A DNA stretch of 64,000 nt from an uncultured Ignavibacteriota bacterium (GTDB lineage: Bacteria > Bacteroidota > Ignavibacteria > UBA10030 > UBA8401): the NCBI GenBank assembly GCA_903884005.1, contig CAISDA010000026.1:1-64000 (forward strand), given 5' to 3'. Below the pieces are notes generated by a model. The model had not been told where the DNA came from and searched no databases. It was given only the letters and a program-made list of their open reading frames with translations. Shown in pieces: positions 11,033 through 22,637 of this stretch. The stretch's first letter is position 1, and the number at the start of each line of letters is the position of its first letter. A program made the position numbers and the translations under genes.

Positions 11033-13213
11033 TTATTTCCGCGTCATGACGAACACACCGTCCCAATCGTCGGGCGGGGGTTCTTCCATAAAAAACAGCG
11101 ACCGCTGAATATAGAGGTGCGCAACCATGTCGTCCCGTCTCCGGTTCAAGACATCCTCAAAATGATGTATCCCCGTCTGCCATTCACGGCGCTTGTACGC
11201 ATCCAGCCCTTTTTGAAATGAATCCAGCAGCAGCCAGAATTCATCCGGATGCGTGTCGTTCACCATCGAAAGCAGTTCGAACATTTTAACGGCCTTCGTC
11301 TTGCCGAGCACGAGCACGTTGTCAATTTCACGCGCCAAGACCCGGGACTGGACGCGCGTATATGTGTTTTCCGTCATTAACAGATTCGTCCCATATTCCT
11401 TATTGACTCCGCTCAGGCGCGATGCAATATTCACCGAGTCGCCGATCGCGGTATAGCTGAACTTCGCCTCTGATCCCATGTTTCCCACAACGGCCGTGCC
11501 TGTGTTGAGCCCGACTCGCTGGCGGATGATCGGTCCTGAAAACCGCTTCTCGTCCCGATACTCCGTATTGATGAAGCGCTGCATCGCCAGGGCCGCCGAA
11601 CACGCATGGAAGGCATGGTCGTGATCCTCCAGCGGTGCTCCCCAGAAAGCCATCACGGCATCGCCGATGTACTTATCGACCGTCCCCTTGTCTTCCAGGA
11701 TAAAATGGGATATGTCCGTGAAATACGTATTGAGGATGCCGACGGTCTTTTGCGGATCCAACTGCTCGGCAAGCCGCGTGAACCCCTGAACATCGGCGAA
11801 CATCGTCGTGATCTCGCTCACTTCGCCGCCCAATTTTAAGAGCAGCGGATTTTCGATCAATTGTTCGACGATCGAGACGTCGACATATTTTTGGAACATC
11901 TCCTTCATCTGCGATTTGCGCTTGCGCTCTACCGAAGAACTGTAACTGATGGCTATGACATAACAGACAGCCAACGCGATGAGCGGGGCAAAGACGGGAA
12001 GCACGTACCCGGATTTTATAAATATCGCATAGGCCGTGTCCAGATAGCCGATGATGAACGTCATGGTCCACACCAGGCTCCACCTCGGCTGAAGCACCTG
12101 CGTGAAGATGCCGAGCGCAATACAGAGCGTGAGCAGAATAAAGCCGTAGATAACCGATGGAACGGGGCGGATGTAGACGCCGGACACGATCTGTTCGGCC
12201 ACATTCGCATGGATGTAACAATTTGGAGAAAGGTCTGCGATCGGCGTCGAATTATGATCACCCACGGAGCGTGCCGTCGCACCGATGATGACGATGGCAT
12301 TTTTAAAGACATCGAGCCTGAGCGAGTCGCCGCGGAGGTACGCATCGATCACTTCTGAAAAAGAGATCGTGCGAAAGATACCGTTCCTGCCGGCATAATC
12401 GATCAGCAGGTCCCCGTTGGCCGACAGAGGAATCACGATCCGGTTAAATGCGACTTCAAATCCCTCGAGTGTGCGGGTGATGACGCCGGCGTGCATGTCC
12501 AGTTTGAGATAGGTCAACGCAAGCCTGGCTCCGAGCGCGGGGTAATACTCTCCGGCATATTCAATGAAAAAAGGCATGGAACGAACCACGCCGTCCAACG
12601 AATCGGGACGCACGAGGATGTGTCCGACCCCTTCGGTCACCGCTGCCAGCGAGTCGAAGGGGCGCTCGTCGATGTTGAGCGCACGCGGGAAGGGAACTTC
12701 GACCGTGCTTTTTTTAATGGCGTGGCGGTGAAGCGATTGATACGCCGCCGGGTCAAAATCGACATATTTTGTCGAACCGACGATGCCGTCGTTCGGTATG
12801 AACGGCCCTATGGCATGAAAAACATTCGGCAGAAGCCGTGAAAAGCCGAGCAGCAGACTGTCCTCTCGCAGCGCCCCGGCGTCTGTCCGCCGGTTCGTCA
12901 GCAGCTCATCCACGCCGATCACCGCAGCGCCGTGCTGTGTGGCGATGGCAAAAACCGATCCAAGCTTGCCGCGCAAAACCGGGTATTCGTATGTGCGCAG
13001 CGTCTGTTCGTCGATCGCCACGATGACGATCGGTGCCGAGTGCGAACGGGTCCCCCGGAGCCTCATCATCGCGTCATACGCCTTCAACTCGAGGACGCGG
13101 AAGAACGAGAACTGAAAAAGCATCAGCGTCAGCGCCACCGCGCCGGCGCCGAATATCGCGCCCTCAAGGATGTGCCGTGCATATTTTTTCTTCAGCAGTC
13201 CCTGTGCCATCAT
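11033..13213 (-). CDS. CHASE2-domain class III adenylate/guanylate cyclase
   Basis: The 726-residue protein starts with one membrane helix, then a periplasmic CHASE2 sensor (about 40-330; APIVIVAIDEQTLRTYEYP), three helices (about 335-430) and a cytoplasmic class III cyclase domain (about 465-640). Metal aspartates are in MFADVQGFT and GDAVMAFWGAP; the Asn/Arg transition-state motif is AIGDSVNIASRL. It should make cAMP or cGMP in response to an envelope signal. A C-terminal tail of about 80 residues may be helical. It is the last gene of the 11-22.5 kb cluster and overlaps the transglutaminase-TPR gene by four bases (ATGA), so the two are translationally coupled. Substrate base is not decided by the visible motifs. 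Confidence 0.92.
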   Translation of the reverse strand: MMAQGLLKKKYARHILEGAIFGAGAVALTLMLFQFSFFRVLELKAYDAMMRLRGTRSHSAPIVIVAIDEQTLRTYEYPVLRGKLGSVFAIATQHGAAVIGVDELLTNRRTDAGALREDSLLLGFSRLLPNVFHAIGPFIPNDGIVGSTKYVDFDPAAYQSLHRHAIKKSTVEVPFPRALNIDERPFDSLAAVTEGVGHILVRPDSLDGVVRSMPFFIEYAGEYYPALGARLALTYLKLDMHAGVITRTLEGFEVAFNRIVIPLSANGDLLIDYAGRNGIFRTISFSEVIDAYLRGDSLRLDVFKNAIVIIGATARSVGDHNSTPIADLSPNCYIHANVAEQIVSGVYIRPVPSVIYGFILLTLCIALGIFTQVLQPRWSLVWTMTFIIGYLDTAYAIFIKSGYVLPVFAPLIALAVCYVIAISYSSSVERKRKSQMKEMFQKYVDVSIVEQLIENPLLLKLGGEVSEITTMFADVQGFTRLAEQLDPQKTVGILNTYFTDISHFILEDKGTVDKYIGDAVMAFWGAPLEDHDHAFHACSAALAMQRFINTEYRDEKRFSGPIIRQRVGLNTGTAVVGNMGSEAKFSYTAIGDSVNIASRLSGVNKEYGTNLLMTENTYTRVQSRVLAREIDNVLVLGKTKAVKMFELLSMVNDTHPDEFWLLLDSFQKGLDAYKRREWQTGIHHFEDVLNRRRDDMVAHLYIQRSLFFMEEPPPDDWDGVFVMTRK

Positions 13214-15702
13214 GCCGGATTTTTCCAGTAGAGAATGTCTTTGAGCGCTACAACGGCCGAAGGATTGATGCCCCGGCGTCCCCCGAAGATGAATTTATTT
13301 TCCCCTTGGCGCGGCCTGACGGGCACCGGGTCTTTCACCTTCGCCGTGGCGATATCCTTCAGCGCGGATTCGAGGAGGCGTTTGAGTTCCGTCTTGTCAT
13401 TTGATCTTTTCTTCTCCGCCCCCTTGCGCTCCACCGCCGCATCGTCCCCCGACACTAGCCCGAGCAGGTCGTAGGCGCGATCCATTGAATCCAACTGCTC
13501 CGCACCCTGCCGCAGCGCTGCAGACGCGGCATCCTCGTCGCCTCCGATAAATTTGAGCACACCAAGGTTCAGCACGATGCCGGCATCGATATGATCGGCT
13601 TTCAGCGCAGACTGGTACGCCCGGAAGGCGTTCAGCGAATCGCCCTTCAAAAAACAGATATTGCCGCGATTGTTCAACGACGCCGCGGAAACGTAATTTT
13701 TGAGCAGGGCCGATGCCTCGTCGTATTTGTTGGCAATCGTCAGTAGCAGGGCGGCGCGGTTTGCGCTGCGTTCCGTTTTCTGCTGCTGCAGCAAGACCAC
13801 TTCCGCATCGATCCTGTTCATCAGGTCTTGTGAGATGGCCTTCACATCGGCACTCACGAGTTCACTCACCGCAACGGGCTCGGGCATGGCAACCGGCTTC
13901 ACCATCGATGCAAGATCGATCGGAGGATACTGCTGCCATGCGCTGTGCAGGTCGACCACGTCAGGGCGTTTCGCCCCTGCATGTGCATCGCTGTATTCCT
14001 TCATGCCTTCCTTCCACGCCGCAAGAAACGGCCCGTTGGTCATCGTCGTTTCCAGCGGAATCCATACCGTGCCGTTGCGCACAACGTAGGCGCCCTCGTC
14101 CGTACTGATGCGCGCCGCATTTTTTTGGTGGACGCCGGTATCAAAGAGGATGAACACATGATTCGCTGTGACCGTTATTGCAGTTGGAATGCCCACACTC
14201 TCCAGGCATGCTGCCAGCAGCGTCGACGTATCGTCGCAGTCGCCCGACCGCATCGCCAATGTTTCCTGCGGATACCGCACTTCATCAAGCACGTCCTTCC
14301 CCGCCGATGTCCACGGATCGCCGGCATAGGCAAACGACATGGCCTGCAGGGCGTCCCAAATTTTAATGGCATTCATCATGTTCACGGAGCTTGACGGAAG
14401 CACGACTGCATCGTGCCGCACATCGGCAAGTATCTCACGGGTGAACGAACTGATCGCATCGCTCGCGGGCGTCACGAAGGACGCCACGGATGCGGGATCC
14501 GACCATGCGATCGCGTGCTTGTTCAGTATCAGCACCGGTTTTACAACGGAACGCGAATATTCCATGCCCGCCGATTCATATGTCAGATCGATGCGGATCT
14601 GCGACGGGGTCTCTTTCGAGAGCAGGGCCAGCTTTTCAACATCGAGGAGAGCAAAAACGGCGATCGTTTTTTCTTCTCCCGGTTTCAGGGACATAATGGT
14701 CTGCTCGGACGATTCGCGCATAAAATCCGCGGTGAATATTTTCGCGGCGATATTTTTTATGTCCGCCGCGCTCGTATTCTTCACCGTTGCCGTACCGATC
14801 GGATGTTTCACGTAATGAAGGGCCTGCGAAGGGAAAATATTGTGCGCCGTGAAGGCGGTGATCTCCAGGCCGTTCGAGACGCGGGCGGCGGTATGCTTCA
14901 CCGAGCGGGCGCGGTACAGAACGTCGATGCGGCTGCCCGAAAAACCGGTCACGACAAAATTTTTCGCCGAACTTAACTGCTTGCGCACTTCGTCCGCCGC
15001 ACCCCGTATCGTGCAGTCGAATACCGCCGCATCTCCTTCCATGAATCGGACGGAGACCGTGCGCAGCGCCGGAGCGGCGGCAGGAAGCTCATTTTCAATT
15101 TTTTGCAAGACGGCGTCATCCACGCCCTGCACGATGAGTTCAAGCGACTTCTCCTGCGCCGCATCGAAGGCCTCGTGGAGCGATGCGCAGATCATGGCGC
15201 CGAGCGAATCGCCGACGGCTTCGAGGGTCTTAAACGCCGCGGTGGGTTTCGCCTGCGATGCTTTTTCCGCCGCTGCGGTGAAGAGGCCCAGCACTTCACC
15301 CGTTTCCGTAGACAGGGCTTTCACGCTGGCATCAGCCACATACAGGTAACTCTTAAAACCATACGTCTCGCGTTCCCCGCCCGGCAGAGCGGTCGCCCCG
15401 CCCGTGACGAGTATTTCGGCACCGAGGCGGCGCGCAAGCGCAATTGCTTTCTTCGGATTCAGCTCGCGCATCGCGCTGTCGCGCTGCCGCACCGCTTCGA
15501 ACTGTCGCGCGTCGATCACACGATACCCGTGCGCCTTCAATGCGCCTTCGATCTTCAACGATGCCTTGTGCGACGTCGCGTCCGTATTGTCGATCTTTTC
15601 ATCCAGGATCACCATGACCCGCGGCAGATCCGGCTTATCGCCGGGCGTTTCGGCATGAAGTGAAAATGCAGCGGCGATCGCACAGGCAAGTATGCGCTTC
15701 AT
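13210..15702 (-). CDS. Secreted transglutaminase-like and TPR protein with N-terminal CsgG/FlgO-like region
   Basis: This 830-residue protein begins with a signal peptide (MKRILACAIAAAFSLHA). Residues about 25-180 resemble the small CsgG/FlgO fold (RVMVILDEKID, IALARRLGAEILVTGGATA). A transglutaminase/protease-like core follows: RSGDCDDTSTLLAAC (Cys about 488), VTANHVFILFD (His about 513). Then come tetratricopeptide repeats (about 640-760) and a charged tail. Such proteins often act in the envelope as peptidases or assembly factors. The gene overlaps its neighbours on both sides by four bases. The tail has a basic segment KRSNDKTELKRL. Substrate unknown. Confidence 0.75.
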   Translation of the reverse strand: MKRILACAIAAAFSLHAETPGDKPDLPRVMVILDEKIDNTDATSHKASLKIEGALKAHGYRVIDARQFEAVRQRDSAMRELNPKKAIALARRLGAEILVTGGATALPGGERETYGFKSYLYVADASVKALSTETGEVLGLFTAAAEKASQAKPTAAFKTLEAVGDSLGAMICASLHEAFDAAQEKSLELIVQGVDDAVLQKIENELPAAAPALRTVSVRFMEGDAAVFDCTIRGAADEVRKQLSSAKNFVVTGFSGSRIDVLYRARSVKHTAARVSNGLEITAFTAHNIFPSQALHYVKHPIGTATVKNTSAADIKNIAAKIFTADFMRESSEQTIMSLKPGEEKTIAVFALLDVEKLALLSKETPSQIRIDLTYESAGMEYSRSVVKPVLILNKHAIAWSDPASVASFVTPASDAISSFTREILADVRHDAVVLPSSSVNMMNAIKIWDALQAMSFAYAGDPWTSAGKDVLDEVRYPQETLAMRSGDCDDTSTLLAACLESVGIPTAITVTANHVFILFDTGVHQKNAARISTDEGAYVVRNGTVWIPLETTMTNGPFLAAWKEGMKEYSDAHAGAKRPDVVDLHSAWQQYPPIDLASMVKPVAMPEPVAVSELVSADVKAISQDLMNRIDAEVVLLQQQKTERSANRAALLLTIANKYDEASALLKNYVSAASLNNRGNICFLKGDSLNAFRAYQSALKADHIDAGIVLNLGVLKFIGGDEDAASAALRQGAEQLDSMDRAYDLLGLVSGDDAAVERKGAEKKRSNDKTELKRLLESALKDIATAKVKDPVPVRPRQGENKFIFGGRRGINPSAVVALKDILYWKNPA

Positions 15703-16202
15703 TGACTGATCCTTTCCAATGCTATCGTAATTTTTTGTTCGAGAGTTCGCACCATCGGAAGCACTTCATCGACGCTTCCGGTCTCTTCTTCTGCAACGAT
15801 CGTTTCTCCCGTTTCGGTTGCGACGAGGCGCACATCGATGCGAAATTCGTCGTGCGTGATGCTCGTGTACCCGCCGAATACCAGGATACGTGCTCCGAGT
15901 AATTTACCCAGCTTCAATGCCGTCGCGGGATTCACCATATCGGTTTCATTCAGATGCAGTTCCTCGATGAGCGCCTGCATGCGCTGCCGTTCCACCACCT
16001 TCACCGATTTCACCTTCGAGAGACGCGTCGTCATCATGTCCGCAATCCCCTTCTTCAACGGATCAAGCCGCTCCTTCGAATCGATGCTGTTGTTCTCGAA
16101 CGCAAAGATCGCAAGCGTTACCGGCGGTTTATCCTCCCCGCGCGCCATGGCACCGCCTATCAGGCACAACGCCGTGACAAGTATGATTCTCCGTGCCTTC
16201 AT
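15699..16202 (-). CDS. Periplasmic CsgG/FlgO-family protein
   Basis: The 167-residue product has a signal peptide (MKARRIILVTALCLIGGAMARG) and the compact fold seen in CsgG and FlgO: TLAIFAFENNSIDSKERLDP, GIADMMTTRLSKVKSVKVVE, RQRMQALIEELHLNET, LLGARILVFGGYTS. Family members help assemble outer-membrane secretion pores or flagellar/curli parts. It lacks a lipobox Cys, unlike CsgG itself. It overlaps the transglutaminase gene by four bases. A second copy of the fold lies in the 474-residue lipoprotein at 21046-22470. Confidence 0.8.
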   Translation of the reverse strand: MKARRIILVTALCLIGGAMARGEDKPPVTLAIFAFENNSIDSKERLDPLKKGIADMMTTRLSKVKSVKVVERQRMQALIEELHLNETDMVNPATALKLGKLLGARILVFGGYTSITHDEFRIDVRLVATETGETIVAEEETGSVDEVLPMVRTLEQKITIALERISQ

Positions 16203-16326
16203 TTTATATGTTCTCCCGTACGATCCTGATAAATGGTTACTACTCAGTGTGCGCCGAAATCATTGTCATTCTAATGTTACCATCTTGACCGCATCAAGAC
16301 TCTTTATACATATGACATAAGTACTC

Positions 16327-16411
16327 TGTCATTCTGAACGCAAGCGAAGAATCTTGCATCGCGTTAGCAGTCGGCGAGATTCTTCGGTCGCTACGCTCCC
16401 TCAGAATGACA
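16327..16411. repeat. REP/MITE-like long inverted repeat
   Basis: The ends TGTCATTCTGAACGCAAGCG and its near-complement ending TCAGAATGACA, with GAAGAATCT/AGATTCTTC inside, make a long imperfect hairpin of about 85 bases. The TGTCATTCTGA...AGAATCT type is a familiar dispersed palindromic repeat in many bacterial genomes. It sits in the only sizeable gap (16203-16446) of the 11-22.5 kb cluster and may separate it into two transcripts. Confidence 0.7.
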
Positions 16412-16446
16412 GGGCTGGAGGGTACGGTGAGTAGTTGCAATAAATG

Positions 16447-17622
16447 TTAGAACAAAAACTTCAGACCGGCGCCGGCATCGAAGCCGACCGCATGCCGGTC
16501 GCTGTTCATGAACGTGATGGAGCCGACACCGAACCCGAGCTCAGACGACAGCATGCACCACCGCGCGATCGCCCAGCGGCATTCGGCCGAGAGTGTTCCG
16601 ACAGTTCCGCCGCCGGTGGTGAGCACTTCGCCGTTGACGGGAAACTCGTCGGACGACATCGCTTTTGCCTCCGCGCTCGCCGTAAGCGACACCTTTTCCC
16701 TGAGCGGGAGCGTCAACGAGTACCGCACGGCATACTGCCGGGCGGCCGGCGATTCTTCTTCCACGCCGTTGATCGTGCTCACATTGCGGGCGCGCAGTTC
16801 TGCGCGGACCTGCAGCGTGTGGACTCCGAGCGGTGCAACGTGTGAGCCGACCAGGACGAATGCGGCCTTGATGCCGGATCGAAAAAAAACATCGCCGTTG
16901 ATCCTGTCCGGAAGATAATACGTCACCGTATAATCCGCAGAAAAACGGTTTGTCTTCACTCCGTCTCTGAGATCGATGCCGATATTGGCGGCAAGTTCGT
17001 TCCCCGGATCGTAGCGCATCGTATACGACTCCGCAGGCGCCGCCGGTTCGTAACTTCCCTTGAACGACGCAGCGGCGCCACATCCGAACACGACGCCCCG
17101 CGCAACGCTCGACGCGTATGCGCATCCGAGCGTCGCATCCCATCCGTGTCCCATCGACGGCATCCGGTACCCGAGCGCGGGCTGGGCCAGGGTTGCGGCA
17201 AGCTCAGTCTGCACCTGCGATAATCGCGTGACGCCTGTCGGGACGCTCACGGAACCGGTGACCCAGAGTTGGTCTCCCGGAAGCACGGCCGATACCGACA
17301 CGCGTGTTTCCGGAACGCCCGCAATCGCCGCATCGCCCTGCTGCACGGATGCCGGAACAGCGGCCAGGGAGAATAACACTCGTTCGCTCGCCGGCATCGT
17401 CACCGTCATTGGATAGGTCTGCTGACCCAGACGCACGCCGCCGATGCTCCATGAATGAACGCTGGCCCCGGCCGATGCCGACGCCGACTCCTGAAATAAG
17501 TTTTTGTCGTCATACACCGACTTTACATGCTGCGCGCACGCAGGACCGACATTCAGCAGCAACGCAAGCGCGATGCATGCATTCAACGGCTGCCGCAGCG
17601 TATGTTCGTTCCTCTTCCTCAT
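16447..17622 (-). CDS. Predicted outer-membrane beta-barrel protein
   Basis: The 391-residue protein has a signal peptide ending near ALLLNVGPACAQ, a body with repeated alternating amphipathic strands, and a C-terminal aromatic end (DAGAGLKFLF), typical for outer-membrane barrels. I do not recognise a named family. It overlaps the 1135-residue T9SS protein gene by four bases (ATGA), so the two are made together, and the barrel may anchor or accompany that surface protein. Cysteines occur (CAYASS, VFGCGAAAS, CRWAIARWCM), which is unusual for a barrel and might reflect a disulphide. Confidence 0.65.
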   Translation of the reverse strand: MRKRNEHTLRQPLNACIALALLLNVGPACAQHVKSVYDDKNLFQESASASAGASVHSWSIGGVRLGQQTYPMTVTMPASERVLFSLAAVPASVQQGDAAIAGVPETRVSVSAVLPGDQLWVTGSVSVPTGVTRLSQVQTELAATLAQPALGYRMPSMGHGWDATLGCAYASSVARGVVFGCGAAASFKGSYEPAAPAESYTMRYDPGNELAANIGIDLRDGVKTNRFSADYTVTYYLPDRINGDVFFRSGIKAAFVLVGSHVAPLGVHTLQVRAELRARNVSTINGVEEESPAARQYAVRYSLTLPLREKVSLTASAEAKAMSSDEFPVNGEVLTTGGGTVGTLSAECRWAIARWCMLSSELGFGVGSITFMNSDRHAVGFDAGAGLKFLF

Positions 17623-20600
17623 CGCACGAGCACCATCCGTTTCGATTGCACGTATGCCGGTGTGGTGAGGCGGTAAAAATATACACCGCTCGATACCTCC
17701 ATGCCGCTGTCATCCTTGCCGTCCCATTGCTCGGCATACACGCCGAGCGCCTGCTGCCGCTGCACAAGCGTTTTAATTTTTTGTCCGAGCACGGTGAATA
17801 CGTCGAGTTCCACCATGCCGCTGCGGGCAACGGTGTACCGGATCGTGGTTGATGGATTCCACGGATTCGGAAAATTTTGCTCGAGTCCGTACACAAGAGG
17901 CGTCATGGGGATGCCATCGGTGTGCTGTTCGATAAATTTTTGTTCGCCCACAAGGATGCGGAATGCACGCGACGATTCATTCGTCTCGAATGTGCATTCA
18001 TACGCCGACGCCTGCGTGCAGTCGGCGATCCGTTCCGCACCGCGGTCCAGAATATAGACGCCGTATCCGGCCGGAAGCGGAGACATGCGCTCGATGTGAA
18101 GCGAAATGTGCGCACAAGGCTGGGAGGCACGGACCGTGCAGTCCCATACTGCGCCCCCCGTCGCGATCGGACGATAATCGCCGGCCAAAGCTCGGCGATC
18201 GGCCTCGATGAAGCTCAACGAGACATACCTTCCGGGCGGAACCGGCGGTTCTGCAAAATCATTTTTGTCCAATGTTTCGGAGGATGACTGCAGCATGCCG
18301 AAATAATTTTCGTTATCAGAGACGGTCCCATCCGTTGCCGACACACGCATGCTCCATTCGCCTTCTGCCGAAGCAGACGATGCGATCGCAGCCTTGTCCA
18401 TGACATTTAAATTAATCGGCACGGGAACCATGGTCACCACCGCGTCCGAATCGGAGGCGTTATTCACGAAATATCCTTCGAACGGTCTCAGAATATTCGT
18501 CGGAGAAAACCCTTTCCCGTCGTATTCCCACGCCCACATATCGACCGATGCCGGCCGCACCGATTTCCACCAATTGATCGCAAACGGAAATGGATCGCCG
18601 ATGAGCGTGAATCCGGGTTTCAACGTCATCGTGAACGGTTCCGGCAGGACCGTATAATCGGCGGTGCCGAGTTGCAGCGGCCGCTCATCTTTCATGATCA
18701 GCCAGTACGCCTTTCCGCGGTCTACCGTCATGAGCGGCGGCGACGGATACTCGGCGTAACTCTGGGCCTTGTCGTTCCATAGGCCGAAGAGCCGCCAGTC
18801 GTACGGATTCGGCTTTCCCAAACCGCTCAGCACCGACGCCGTGGAATTATCCGCAAGCACATACGGCACGCTGATCAGTCGGTACTGTTCGTTCTGGAGC
18901 GTCCCCGATAAACTGACCGCGGCGTTTTCAACCGTGCCGGCAATGGAAAAGGCACAGGCGAAATTATCCGCCGCCCACAATCCGGTCGCCATATCGCCCG
19001 GAGCGCTGTTCGCCCAGAAGCGCGGATCGCCGAACGCAATAATTTTCCCTTTGCCCGCGCGCGTCACACTTGCGAGTATCGCGGCAGACTGTGTACCGGG
19101 TGCGGCGCTGCTGAAAGAAAGGCCGGCGGCTGCAAAGAGTGTATCTGAATTTTTTCCGGTCAGCGTCAATCCGGTGCCGGACGCGAACACGAGCGTATCG
19201 GCGTGGGCAAGATACGAAGCCGACGAGGCCGAAAAGGATTTTGCTGCGGCGATGAAGCCGCTCGCCAACGAGGCGGTGTCTGCGCGGAAGCGGACGGATA
19301 CTTCCATCTGCGCCGCGTCGTTCCATTGGGGCATGGAGAACAATGCATTCAGCACCGCTGCACTGCGATCGGCCGCACTGCCGAGCGCGGCGATCGTGGT
19401 TCCGGCTGCGGCAAGTCCGGCCAGCACAGTACATTCGCCTGAGGTAAAGGGACGGTTCGGCGCCGGCAGGATCACCATTGCTACTGCAGCAGCCGGCGAA
19501 GCCGGAAGCGTGTCAATAACGGACATACCGGCAAGAGTGAATGCGCGGGCCAGATCGGAGTACATCGGCGATGCCGCGTCCGTTCCCGCGTGCGTGCGGT
19601 CGATGACGATCGTGCGGCCGCCCGTCGTTCCGAGGCCGGTGCAGAAACCCGTAAGGACGGCTTCGCCGCGGGCGAGCTGCGGATCATTCGTTGAAAAGGA
19701 CAGCAGTGCGGTAAACTTGCCGACACCAGTGGGAACGAAGCGTACGGCGATCTCTGCCGTCTGCTGTGCCGGTATCGCGAGCGAATCATAAGGCGTGATG
19801 AACGAGAAATTTTTGGATGTGTTCAGCAAGATCGAGCCGACAGTGAGCGTCCGCTCGCCCCGATTGCTGATGCGGACGGTTGTCGTTGTTGTTCCGCCTG
19901 AGCCGACGATGCCCGCGTTGAATGCCGTTAACGCCAGCGATGCGATCGGGAAGACATCGAGCGTTTTCCGCACCCACGTTGTGCCGTCATCGTAACTGAC
20001 GCGAACGCCGTCCCCGGTGGCAAGATAGATCTTTGCCCGGTTTGGGCCGCGCTCGGGCATCGAGCAGGCGCGCACATCGACCTGCTCGTCGGCAATTTTC
20101 GTCCAGCGCGTTCCTGGTGCAATAATGCCTGCAGAGGAACTGAGCTTATAGACTCCGCTCTGAGCGGCGGGATCATCCGGCAGGCGCCCCATTGCGGCAC
20201 AATACGAATACGACCGGGATGCCGCTGTGGCATCGTACACAATGACGCCGAGAGCGCCGATCCGGCCGGACGGAAGACCGGCGTCACAACGGACCCATTG
20301 AGCCAAGCGGAACTGGTAGACATAGGCGCCGGCATCGGTTCCCGCAAGCAGACGCATGCCGTCAAGAGACAGCGTGTCGACAAGCAGCGACGTAATATGC
20401 AGACGCGCCGTGCCGCTGCGCGGAAGGGCGGGCAGTTCCGTCCATATGCCCGATTTTTTTTCGCTGGAGATCAGAATTGTCGTATCGTTGGCCCCGAAAA
20501 AGACCGAACCGGAATCTGTTTGCGTGCTCACCAAAGTGTTGATGTGGTACGGTAAAAGTTGGTCGACTGTGGCCCACGTTTTTCCATCGTCTGCCGTGCG

Positions 20601-21026
20601 CCGTACGGTGATGCCGTCTGCAGCCAGCAGGAGACGCGGACCCGATGGCGGCGCGGCAAGAGCACTGGGCCGAAACACGCTATCGACGGTCCACCACTGC
20701 AGGCCGCCGTCGACGCTTGCCAGAAGCCCTACGCTTGTGGCCGCATACCAATGAGAAGAATTTCGTGAATCGGGCAAGATTGCATATACCGCACCTTCAC
20801 GGACATTCGACTGGACCCATACCGCTCCCCCGTCCGTGCTTCGATACAGTCCGTTGCGCGAAGTGCCGGCACAGACAATGCTGTCGTTCTGAAGGCCCCG
20901 GATACACAGCACGTCGCCCCCTGAACCAATGCCGGCTCCCGAGAGTCCCGCCCCAACAGCCGGATACGACTGCGCGGCAAGCACGATTGCAAATAAGAAA
21001 ACATATGTGGCGGACGATCGCGTCAT
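17619..21026 (-). CDS. Large T9SS-secreted surface protein with propeller and ASH-like domain
   Basis: This is a 1135-residue protein with a signal peptide (residues 1-25). Residues about 35-350 have BNR/propeller-type repeats (GLYRSTDGGAVWVQS, GLLASVDGGLQWW, TVRRTADDGKTWATV, DGVRVSYDDGTTWVRK). Residues about 360-460 look like an ASPM/SPD-2/Hydin immunoglobulin-type domain (NRGERTLTVGSILLNTSKNF, FSTNDPQLARGEAVLTG). A long middle section follows, and a T9SS sorting domain (LEQNFPNPWNPSTTI ... SGVYFYRL) ends it. It should be exported to the cell surface by the Por system. No catalytic motif is visible. It sits between a lipoprotein and a barrel gene in one operon, 19 bases after the former. Confidence 0.85.
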   Translation of the reverse strand: MTRSSATYVFLFAIVLAAQSYPAVGAGLSGAGIGSGGDVLCIRGLQNDSIVCAGTSRNGLYRSTDGGAVWVQSNVREGAVYAILPDSRNSSHWYAATSVGLLASVDGGLQWWTVDSVFRPSALAAPPSGPRLLLAADGITVRRTADDGKTWATVDQLLPYHINTLVSTQTDSGSVFFGANDTTILISSEKKSGIWTELPALPRSGTARLHITSLLVDTLSLDGMRLLAGTDAGAYVYQFRLAQWVRCDAGLPSGRIGALGVIVYDATAASRSYSYCAAMGRLPDDPAAQSGVYKLSSSAGIIAPGTRWTKIADEQVDVRACSMPERGPNRAKIYLATGDGVRVSYDDGTTWVRKTLDVFPIASLALTAFNAGIVGSGGTTTTTVRISNRGERTLTVGSILLNTSKNFSFITPYDSLAIPAQQTAEIAVRFVPTGVGKFTALLSFSTNDPQLARGEAVLTGFCTGLGTTGGRTIVIDRTHAGTDAASPMYSDLARAFTLAGMSVIDTLPASPAAAVAMVILPAPNRPFTSGECTVLAGLAAAGTTIAALGSAADRSAAVLNALFSMPQWNDAAQMEVSVRFRADTASLASGFIAAAKSFSASSASYLAHADTLVFASGTGLTLTGKNSDTLFAAAGLSFSSAAPGTQSAAILASVTRAGKGKIIAFGDPRFWANSAPGDMATGLWAADNFACAFSIAGTVENAAVSLSGTLQNEQYRLISVPYVLADNSTASVLSGLGKPNPYDWRLFGLWNDKAQSYAEYPSPPLMTVDRGKAYWLIMKDERPLQLGTADYTVLPEPFTMTLKPGFTLIGDPFPFAINWWKSVRPASVDMWAWEYDGKGFSPTNILRPFEGYFVNNASDSDAVVTMVPVPINLNVMDKAAIASSASAEGEWSMRVSATDGTVSDNENYFGMLQSSSETLDKNDFAEPPVPPGRYVSLSFIEADRRALAGDYRPIATGGAVWDCTVRASQPCAHISLHIERMSPLPAGYGVYILDRGAERIADCTQASAYECTFETNESSRAFRILVGEQKFIEQHTDGIPMTPLVYGLEQNFPNPWNPSTTIRYTVARSGMVELDVFTVLGQKIKTLVQRQQALGVYAEQWDGKDDSGMEVSSGVYFYRLTTPAYVQSKRMVLVR

Positions 21027-21045
21027 GAATGTGGCGTGTCTTCGA

Positions 21046-22470
21046 TTATGGTTTCGGCGGCACCGGCGGCGCCGGAAGCGGCTGCCGTATCAATACCGGA
21101 TTCGTTTTGCCGGGATTCGGAAACGTCGGTGCGTATCCTCCCGTGTGTGTCAATGTTGTGGCAGCCCGCTCTATGATCGTCGTGATGGCATCCGAATCTA
21201 TCGGACTGCGGGGTACAATTGTTCCATCGCCCGTCCCCGGCACTTGCGGCAGGCTGCCGGCTGTGCTCGTTCCGCCGCTAGTCCCCGGCACTTGCGGCAG
21301 GTTCCCGGGCACACTTGTACCTCCCCCGCCGGTTCCAGGCAACTGGGGCGGCCGGCCGTTTGAACCGCCAGTCGGGTCAAAACTATCCGTGTAGTCGAGC
21401 TGGTCGCGGGCATCGGAAAAATTCGGATCGAGTTCCAGCGCCTGCCTGAATGATGCCGCGGCCTGCGCAAATGCTCCTCTGTCTTCGAACTCCAATCCTT
21501 CTGCGTAGCGAAGGAATGCAAAATAATTTTCAGTCGGAATAACGAGTATCGCCTCGCGCTCCTCGGCGCTGAGCGGAATGCCCAGTGTGCGCAGCAGGTG
21601 CAGCACCACGTCCTTTTCAGCGCGGAATAAATTTTCTGTCGGACCAAGATTGGAATCGAACGCCTCCACCACAGCGTCGACGGTCTTCGTCACAGCCGCA
21701 TCCAGATGCAGCATGCCGTCGCTTGTCGCAACAAACGAACCCTTCACCACACGATGTGCGCCGACAAGCTTGCCGATGCGCGGGGCTGACACGGGCGATG
21801 CAAGCGCCGTTTCACCGAGCGACAATTCTTCGAGCACCGTTTGAAGGCGCAGGCGTTCAATCACTCTTAAAGCGCGGACCTTCGAGAGATCCGTTGCGAC
21901 CATTTCGGCCAGACCGCGGCAAAGCGGATCCATGTCGCGAGCGGATCCGTTATTCTCGAACGAGAGCACGGCCACGGTATTCGTATCGATGGAGGAAACG
22001 GCGATGGAGGATTCATACACAATCGCATGGCGTGCGTCGCGCCGCATGCGGCGCAGAAGCAGTTCGCGGCTTCTCACCATCGCAGTGCTGCCGCGCATAC
22101 GGTAGGATGTGGACTCGGCATACTTCCTGTAGCATGCAATCGCCTTCAGATCGTCGTTCAGCGAATCGGCGCAGACGGCGAGATAGTACATCGCCTGGTC
22201 ATCATCCGGAATTTTTTTAGTATATACAGTGAGGAGTGAATCGGCGAGGGAATAGTGTTGTTTCTGCGCGTGGGCGATGCCCGCTATTTTTACTGTTTCG
22301 ATTGCGGATGGATCAGACAATACCGAATCCGGAATCTGCCGAATGACATCGTCATACAAACCTTCATTCAACGACAGGGACAGCGAATCGAATCGCGACG
22401 AAGCACATCCGCAGAACAGTGCCGCAATAAACAACCCGTATGTAGAGAATGGGAAAAATTTTTGTTTCAC
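21046..22470 (-). CDS. CsgG/FlgO-domain lipoprotein with TPRs and Pro/Gly-rich tail
   Basis: The 474-residue product has a lipoprotein signal (IAALFCGC, lipid Cys near 22), TPR-like helices (about 30-130; AMYYLAVCADSLNDDLKAI), a CsgG/FlgO fold (about 165-300; TVAVLSFENNGSARDMDPLC, RVIERLRLQTVLEELSLGET), another TPR (FRQALELDPNFSDARDQL) and a low-complexity tail with repeats of the LPQVPGT-GGT type and a proline-rich end. It resembles outer-membrane assembly lipoproteins. It is the first gene of the 11-22.5 kb cluster, so the promoter should be within 22471-22637. Confidence 0.75.
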   Translation of the reverse strand: MKQKFFPFSTYGLFIAALFCGCASSRFDSLSLSLNEGLYDDVIRQIPDSVLSDPSAIETVKIAGIAHAQKQHYSLADSLLTVYTKKIPDDDQAMYYLAVCADSLNDDLKAIACYRKYAESTSYRMRGSTAMVRSRELLLRRMRRDARHAIVYESSIAVSSIDTNTVAVLSFENNGSARDMDPLCRGLAEMVATDLSKVRALRVIERLRLQTVLEELSLGETALASPVSAPRIGKLVGAHRVVKGSFVATSDGMLHLDAAVTKTVDAVVEAFDSNLGPTENLFRAEKDVVLHLLRTLGIPLSAEEREAILVIPTENYFAFLRYAEGLEFEDRGAFAQAAASFRQALELDPNFSDARDQLDYTDSFDPTGGSNGRPPQLPGTGGGGTSVPGNLPQVPGTSGGTSTAGSLPQVPGTGDGTIVPRSPIDSDAITTIIERAATTLTHTGGYAPTFPNPGKTNPVLIRQPLPAPPVPPKP

Positions 22471-22637
22471 AATATAAACAATGGTATGTATAGAGATACG
22501 TCTGTCAGTTTCTTACCATCCTGAATATTGCAAAAATAGCTGATTATTGCAAGTACTTAAAGTAAATCCTGAAGTCTGGCCAGGGCCGCAACGAACGATG
22601 GACAACCATTCGCCGTAGCCCCGGAAGCCTGGCTGCG

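Follow-up and report, generated by a model that had tools for sequence, protein, structure and literature searches.

In Sinorhizobium meliloti, the outer-membrane beta barrel NsrA stands upstream of the CHASE2 cyclases CyaD1, CyaD2 and CyaK, and cyclic AMP (cAMP) acts through the CRP-family regulator Clr, three targets of which, in the parts of the accounts drawn on here, include FecR-domain and tetratricopeptide repeat (TPR) proteins (PMC13001267; PMC5498481). Magnetotactic bacteria carry a TPR-protein gene, mtxA, followed by a conserved CHASE2/adenylate cyclase gene (PMC4439547), and the BiofilmReg operon of Burkholderia encodes a periplasmic FecR/LysM protein, a CHASE2 sensor kinase and a DUF4136 protein (PMC5192318). 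The input sensed by CHASE2 is stated to be unknown in the portion of that last account used here (PMC5192318). The locus described here occupies positions 11033-22470 of a 64,000-nucleotide stretch of DNA from an uncultured Ignavibacteriota bacterium (the window, part of contig C26 in an assembly of 89 contigs and 4.53 Mb), and it links a set of surface proteins with a membrane sensor whose product is probably cAMP, a combination of which we found no description. We find that its six genes form a set conserved across the window's whole bacterial family, and that the pairing of a transglutaminase-fold protein with a CHASE2 protein recurs phylum-wide with exchangeable outputs.

The genes are named g1 to g6 in transcription order; g1-g4 (two CsgG-type proteins, a type IX secretion system (T9SS) protein and a barrel) are referred to as module A and g5-g6 as module B, while f1 denotes the window's family and f2 and so on other families. 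The initial annotation had listed six open reading frames (ORFs), all on the minus strand, with particular domain types, and these are confirmed by the coordinates, by Pfam and NCBIfam and by a model of the barrel:

21046-22470, minus strand: g1, 474-aa predicted lipoprotein with TPR, a CsgG/FlgO-type domain, TPR and a Pro-rich tail; GTG start
17619-21026, minus strand: g2, 1135-aa secreted protein with a BNR/sortilin-like propeller, a HYDIN-type Ig domain, a DUF4350-like region and a T9SS type A tail
16447-17622, minus strand: g3, 391-aa outer-membrane beta barrel
15699-16202, minus strand: g4, 167-aa exported CsgG/LpoB-type protein
13210-15702, minus strand: g5, 830-aa exported protein with a CsgG/PelC-like N-terminal domain, an Ig-like region, a transglutaminase fold, TPR and a conserved C-terminal FGGRRG motif
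11033-13213, minus strand: g6, 726-aa CHASE2 plus class III nucleotide cyclase protein, a predicted adenylate cyclase

The g5 protein is present in 48 of the 60 relatives searched, and we compared the stretches around g5 from 15 family genomes. All six genes stand in the window's order at 10 of these 15 f1 loci (L035, L036, L037, L038, L042, L043, L045, L046, L048 and L049), with g1 cut by a contig end in L043, g6 cut likewise in L046, and extra ORFs between g2 and g3 in L046. Another four (L039, L041, L044 and L047) are truncated where their contigs end, every gene present being in its usual position, and for three of them further genes of the set were recovered on other contigs (L128, L125 and L126); L040 is the sole case among the 15 in which g2 is absent. 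Because the g5 proteins aligned from the family are only 40-46% identical to that of the window, gene order is conserved beyond chance. Thus, an absence of co-conservation outside this genome, which the initial annotation had named as the finding that would tell against it, proved false, as the set is kept across the whole of f1. One genome, G010, rated 100% complete, lacks g5, g3 and a close g6; its best g6 match is 40% over part of the protein, compared to 50% across almost the full length in two congeneric genomes. Both g5 and g6 are carried by two genomes of its genus. A joint assembly gap in G010 may explain the missing g3, g5 and g6.

The g5 profile matches 139 of 294 genomes of the class at E ≤ 0.001, weak TPR-only matches included, and 41 of 345 genomes of the phylum at E ≤ 1e-20. 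From score-ordered lists we chose 84 loci, a subset of all matches, by the g5 protein or profile match alone and blind to CHASE2, and 65 of them have a CHASE2 domain within the stretch, no more than about 7 kb from the match. For g5-type transglutaminases, CHASE2 is found at 15/15 loci in f1, 6/6 in f20, 3/3 in f32 and 2/7 in f6; it is also near the NHL-TPR-transglutaminase type at 8/8 loci and near the PorV-like type (a PorV-like barrel domain fused to the transglutaminase fold, a label from our own reading of the sequences) at 31 of 45 loci, which are spread over families. The chance of a CHASE2 gene within 10 kb of a given gene is about 1-2%, a rough estimate rather than a computed control, based on genome sizes of 2-5 Mb and on CHASE2-bearing genomes mostly having one to four such genes. 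Since loci within a family are related, 65 is not a count of independent events, and the differing arrangements are the better measure. Where the two genes share a strand, CHASE2 lies downstream in f1, f20 and most of the NHL type and upstream in f32 and the PorV type; in f6 the two are divergent. In the g5 and NHL types the CHASE2 protein is a cyclase, and in the PorV type it carries a sigma-54 AAA+ activator domain (the sigma-54 domain was checked by Pfam on one CHASE2 protein, L061, and on the others by hidden Markov model (HMM)); thus different outputs are combined with a constant periplasmic partner. A match of L104 to the CHASE2-NtrC HMM was rejected as CHASE2, the protein being a response regulator that carries a sigma-54 domain.

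Further proteins accompany this pairing at some loci. The three f32 loci, from outside the class, all have a CsgG-type ORF in the interval that separates CHASE2 from g5, two of these ORFs scoring above the Pfam cut-off and the third below it. At several loci of the NHL type, a FecR-like/TPR protein takes the intermediate position between CHASE2 and the transglutaminase; FecR-likeness is our own reading of the sequence, and the single protein tested gave no Pfam FecR match. A T9SS-tailed protein adjoins g5 at 7/7 f6 loci; at L098 g5 and a divergent CHASE2 cyclase are clustered with a T9SS-tailed protein and a pair of CsgG-type genes, and at L051 T9SS and CsgG-type genes adjoin g5 and CHASE2. 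A bolder reading, held as one joint claim at somewhat less than even odds, is a phylum-wide signalling principle in Bacteroidota that has gone undescribed: a periplasmic transglutaminase-fold protein, with a CsgG-type or FecR-like scaffold, would be the dedicated input of CHASE2, with a cyclase or a sigma-54 activator as output, and in f1 its wiring to a T9SS surface complex would make a surface-to-cAMP relay. A conserved partner adjacent to CHASE2, found phylum-wide with a swappable output, is a concrete and testable candidate for the CHASE2 input.

In g5, Transglut_core scores 19.8 bits, just under the Pfam cut-off of 23, and the triad C489, H515 and E551 is invariant in an alignment of 16 sequences, with Glu in the acidic position where Asp is usual. 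The g5 N-terminus is a third CsgG-like domain of the locus, being CsgG/PelC-like by fold comparison of the predicted AlphaFold model; because confidence in this model is moderate (mean predicted local distance difference test score (pLDDT) 70, predicted template modelling score (pTM) 0.48), only this domain match was taken from it. Searched against the sequences of solved structures, g5 matched TPR proteins only, and against plasmids it gave no match. Residues 303-611 of g5 match the NCBIfam anti-phage family ProA (NF058533) at 63.8 bits, far below the 1500-bit cut-off. In g6, both CHASE2 (153.7 bits) and Guanylate_cyc (84.5 bits) are above their Pfam cut-offs, and the cyclase residues D474, K514, D518, N595 and R599 are invariant and D592 nearly so. 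We take these to be metal, transition-state and adenine-selecting residues; K514 and D592 suggest that ATP is the substrate and that the product is probably cAMP. The CHASE2 domain of g6 is presumably periplasmic, as in its family, and the one CRP-type helix-turn-helix protein above cut-off in the window's genome is a possible receiver of cAMP.

The module A proteins fit an envelope location. The g1 N-terminus reads as lipobox-like (...LFCGCASS), the N-termini of g4 and g5 read as signal-peptide-like, and CsgG scores 34.6 bits in g1 against a Pfam cut-off of 20.8. The T9SS type A sorting domain of g2 (TIGR04183) scores 30.3 bits against a cut-off of 23, and SprA, a T9SS core protein, is encoded in the same genome (1099 bits), so g2 has the attributes of T9SS cargo. 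The T9SS tail of what had been called a giant surface protein is therefore real, but the size was generously put, at 1135 aa here and 1465-1623 aa in relatives with an uncut gene. No Pfam family matches g3 above cut-off; AlphaFold models it as a beta barrel (mean pLDDT 82.2, pTM 0.75), with FadL and outer-membrane porins as the best Foldseek matches. In g4, CsgG scores 56.8 bits (cut-off 20.8) and LpoB 33.1 bits, also above cut-off; relatives of g4 measure about 250-283 aa and have a C-terminal extension that the window's protein lacks. The NCBIfam equivalog for the LpoB activator of penicillin-binding proteins gives g4 32 bits, short of its cut-off of 110.55. Neither g1 nor g4 is a full-length CsgG channel, as both match about profile positions 12-100 of 210, and Pfam and NCBIfam place no curli or Pel gene among the six proteins, to which this search was confined. 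On the half-profile match and the lack of a curli partner among the six, a curli-type system was rejected.

Module A is also found outside f1. The g3 barrel occurs in 27 of the 294 class genomes, 13 in f1 and 14 elsewhere; we inspected 13 of the latter, leaving out G177, the weakest match (E 6.6e-4). CsgG/TPR proteins of the g1/g4 kind adjoin g3 at 11 of these 13 loci and a g2-like protein at 12, and at the two loci lacking CsgG-type genes (L121 and L140) the contig ends near g3. No g5 or CHASE2 protein is found in these 13 stretches. Thus the six-gene set joins two older modules, each of which exists apart in other families. At four of the 13 loci (L135, L136, L137 and L138) a class III cyclase ORF adjoins g3 on the opposite strand, with FHA in three. 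In f5, the FHA-cyclase ORFs adjoining module A matched the CHASE2-cyclase HMM but are, by Pfam, cyclases without CHASE2, and were not counted as CHASE2 cyclases.

The layout of the locus bears on whether it is transcribed as one unit. The junctions are +19 bp (g1-g2), -4 (g2-g3), +244 (g3-g4), -4 (g4-g5) and -4 (g5-g6); the description of the genes as mostly overlapping by four bases thus holds for three of five junctions and fails for the 19-bp and 244-bp gaps. Three further features are relevant:

22531-22538, minus strand: TAnnTTTG box, 68 bp upstream of g1, candidate Bacteroidota-type -7 element
16203-16446, minus strand: g3-g4 gap, 244 bp, containing an 87-bp dispersed repeat
16326-16412: the 87-bp dispersed repeat, a palindromic element matched at 41 places across the genome

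Because the 87-bp element has this many genomic matches, at least part of the g3-g4 gap is a local insertion. The corresponding gap in relatives ranges from -4 to +47 bp, apart from a 95-bp gap to g1 at the locus without g2, and gaps between the six genes are short throughout the family loci. We take TAnnTTTG to be a candidate for the Bacteroidota-type -7 element. A minus-strand scan of the 64-kb window finds 13 copies, one of them 57 bp before frdC and none in the g3-g4 gap; these positions are weak evidence for a single g1-g6 transcript and a separate frd transcript. The frd genes are downstream of g6 at most, not all, family loci, and were ruled out as members of the unit, as they are absent or oppositely placed at some family loci keeping all six genes. 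The unit therefore ends at g6.

Our preferred reading, held tentatively and at a little short of even confidence, is that the locus is transcribed and functions as a single unit, coupling an outer-envelope complex through g5 to the CHASE2 adenylate cyclase. We infer co-transcription, physical contact, the direction of signalling and cAMP as the product. The T9SS would deliver g2, with its propeller, to the cell surface; g3 would sit as a barrel in the outer membrane, with g1 and g4, CsgG/LpoB-type proteins with TPRs, beneath. Periplasmic g5, by way of its CsgG-like domain or its TPRs, would be in contact with module A, and sensing of g5 by CHASE2 of g6 in the periplasm would alter adenylate cyclase activity and thereby the CRP-type regulator. 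The g5 protein might act as a protease, a cross-linker or an inactive binding fold. In the part of the Sinorhizobium account used here, CyaD1 with CHASE2 deleted makes cAMP constitutively (PMC5498481), so CHASE2 seems to restrain the cyclase, and a CHASE2-restrained g6 that is released or set by g5 would be the simplest model. Such a relay, if true, would be a route from a T9SS-exported surface protein to the cytoplasm. The cyclic nucleotide might then report an envelope assembly state, as the initial annotation suggested; the cyclase is present with its catalytic residues intact.

Several observations weigh against coupling in a single unit. The window's 244-bp g3-g4 gap could split the locus into two transcripts; module A occurs in f5, f7 and f14 with neither CHASE2 nor transglutaminase, and so cannot need module B; in f6, CHASE2 is missing at five of seven g5 loci, two of these being short stretches (the stretches at L050, L052, L053 and L096 show none, and the L097 contig is too short); CHASE2 was not seen at 14 of the 45 PorV-type loci, several of which are cut by contig ends; and some g5 proteins have NCSG in place of DCDD around the catalytic Cys, so that catalysis may differ or be lost. 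Doubtful, yet to be taken seriously, is the possibility that one operon holds two functional systems, an export or surface-assembly machine (module A) and an envelope-stress sensor (module B), which in f1 share transcription and not mechanism. Indeed, module A is found without g5 and g6 at 11 of 13 non-family loci, and g5 with a CHASE2 cyclase is found without module A in 6/6 f20 genomes. However, parts of the two modules meet again where a CsgG-type gene lies between CHASE2 and g5 in f32, where T9SS and CsgG-type genes adjoin g5 and CHASE2 in f6 (L051 and L098), and where a class III cyclase ORF adjoins module A at four of the 13 non-family loci. The claim that the six genes are one system is supported, as they are co-conserved and g3, g5 and g6 are jointly missing from G010, but the system is a composite, with modules separable elsewhere.

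Signalling might also run in reverse, with g6, its cAMP and g5 controlling or maturing the module A complex and g5 acting as a cysteine protease or cross-linker on g2 or g3. This would suit the invariant triad in the 16 g5 proteins and the T9SS-tailed neighbour at every f6 locus, but we consider it unlikely, as the g5-CHASE2 pairing persists without module A in f20 and the NCSG variant is found in several genomes. Family genomes do share ancestry, and the frd genes are neighbours in many of them as well, so the six genes might be neighbours by descent with no functional link; however, flanks vary while the six genes stay together, G010 lacks g3, g5 and g6 jointly, and several distinct transglutaminase-CHASE2 arrangements occur across the phylum. 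We regard accidental neighbourhood as very improbable, and rejected it on the flank changes, the joint gene absence and the re-association of parts elsewhere.

Other arrangements were noted near CHASE2 proteins. The PorV-type loci (L059-L064, L101-L105, L141-L173 and L182) represent a separate conserved operon encoding a CHASE2-sigma-54 protein (seen at the 31 loci with CHASE2), two proteins without a Pfam match, the PorV-like/transglutaminase protein and a FecR-like/TPR protein. Directly upstream of CHASE2 cyclases other than g6 at L056, L099, L122 and L123 is a protein of roughly 800 aa, possibly another outer-membrane partner, with no Pfam match in the two tested. Another CHASE2 cyclase of this genome (L057:8557-13739) lies near a WD40-caspase protein.

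A search of open-licence papers yielded no report joining CHASE2 with CsgG, type IX secretion or Ignavibacteri(a); CHASE2 and transglutaminase are mentioned together there, in text whose available portions do not describe this pairing. With the CsgG/PelC/LpoB/FlgT-type systems the locus shares domains, in g1 and g4 by HMM and in the g5 N-terminus by fold, but the profile match is partial and the six include no curli or Pel genes. The BiofilmReg operon likewise places a periplasmic protein and a CHASE2 sensor in one operon, but its output is a histidine kinase with a response regulator, and the part of that account used here names no CsgG-type, T9SS, barrel or transglutaminase protein. The mtxA pair sets a TPR protein beside a CHASE2 cyclase; two genes are named in the available portion of its description, with no T9SS, barrel or transglutaminase protein. 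The NsrA pathway has both an outer-membrane barrel and CHASE2 cyclases, but transglutaminase-fold, CsgG-type and T9SS proteins go unmentioned in the parts of its accounts drawn on here. Compared to these systems, the locus is a variant of CHASE2 envelope signalling, and the transglutaminase partnership is its newest element.

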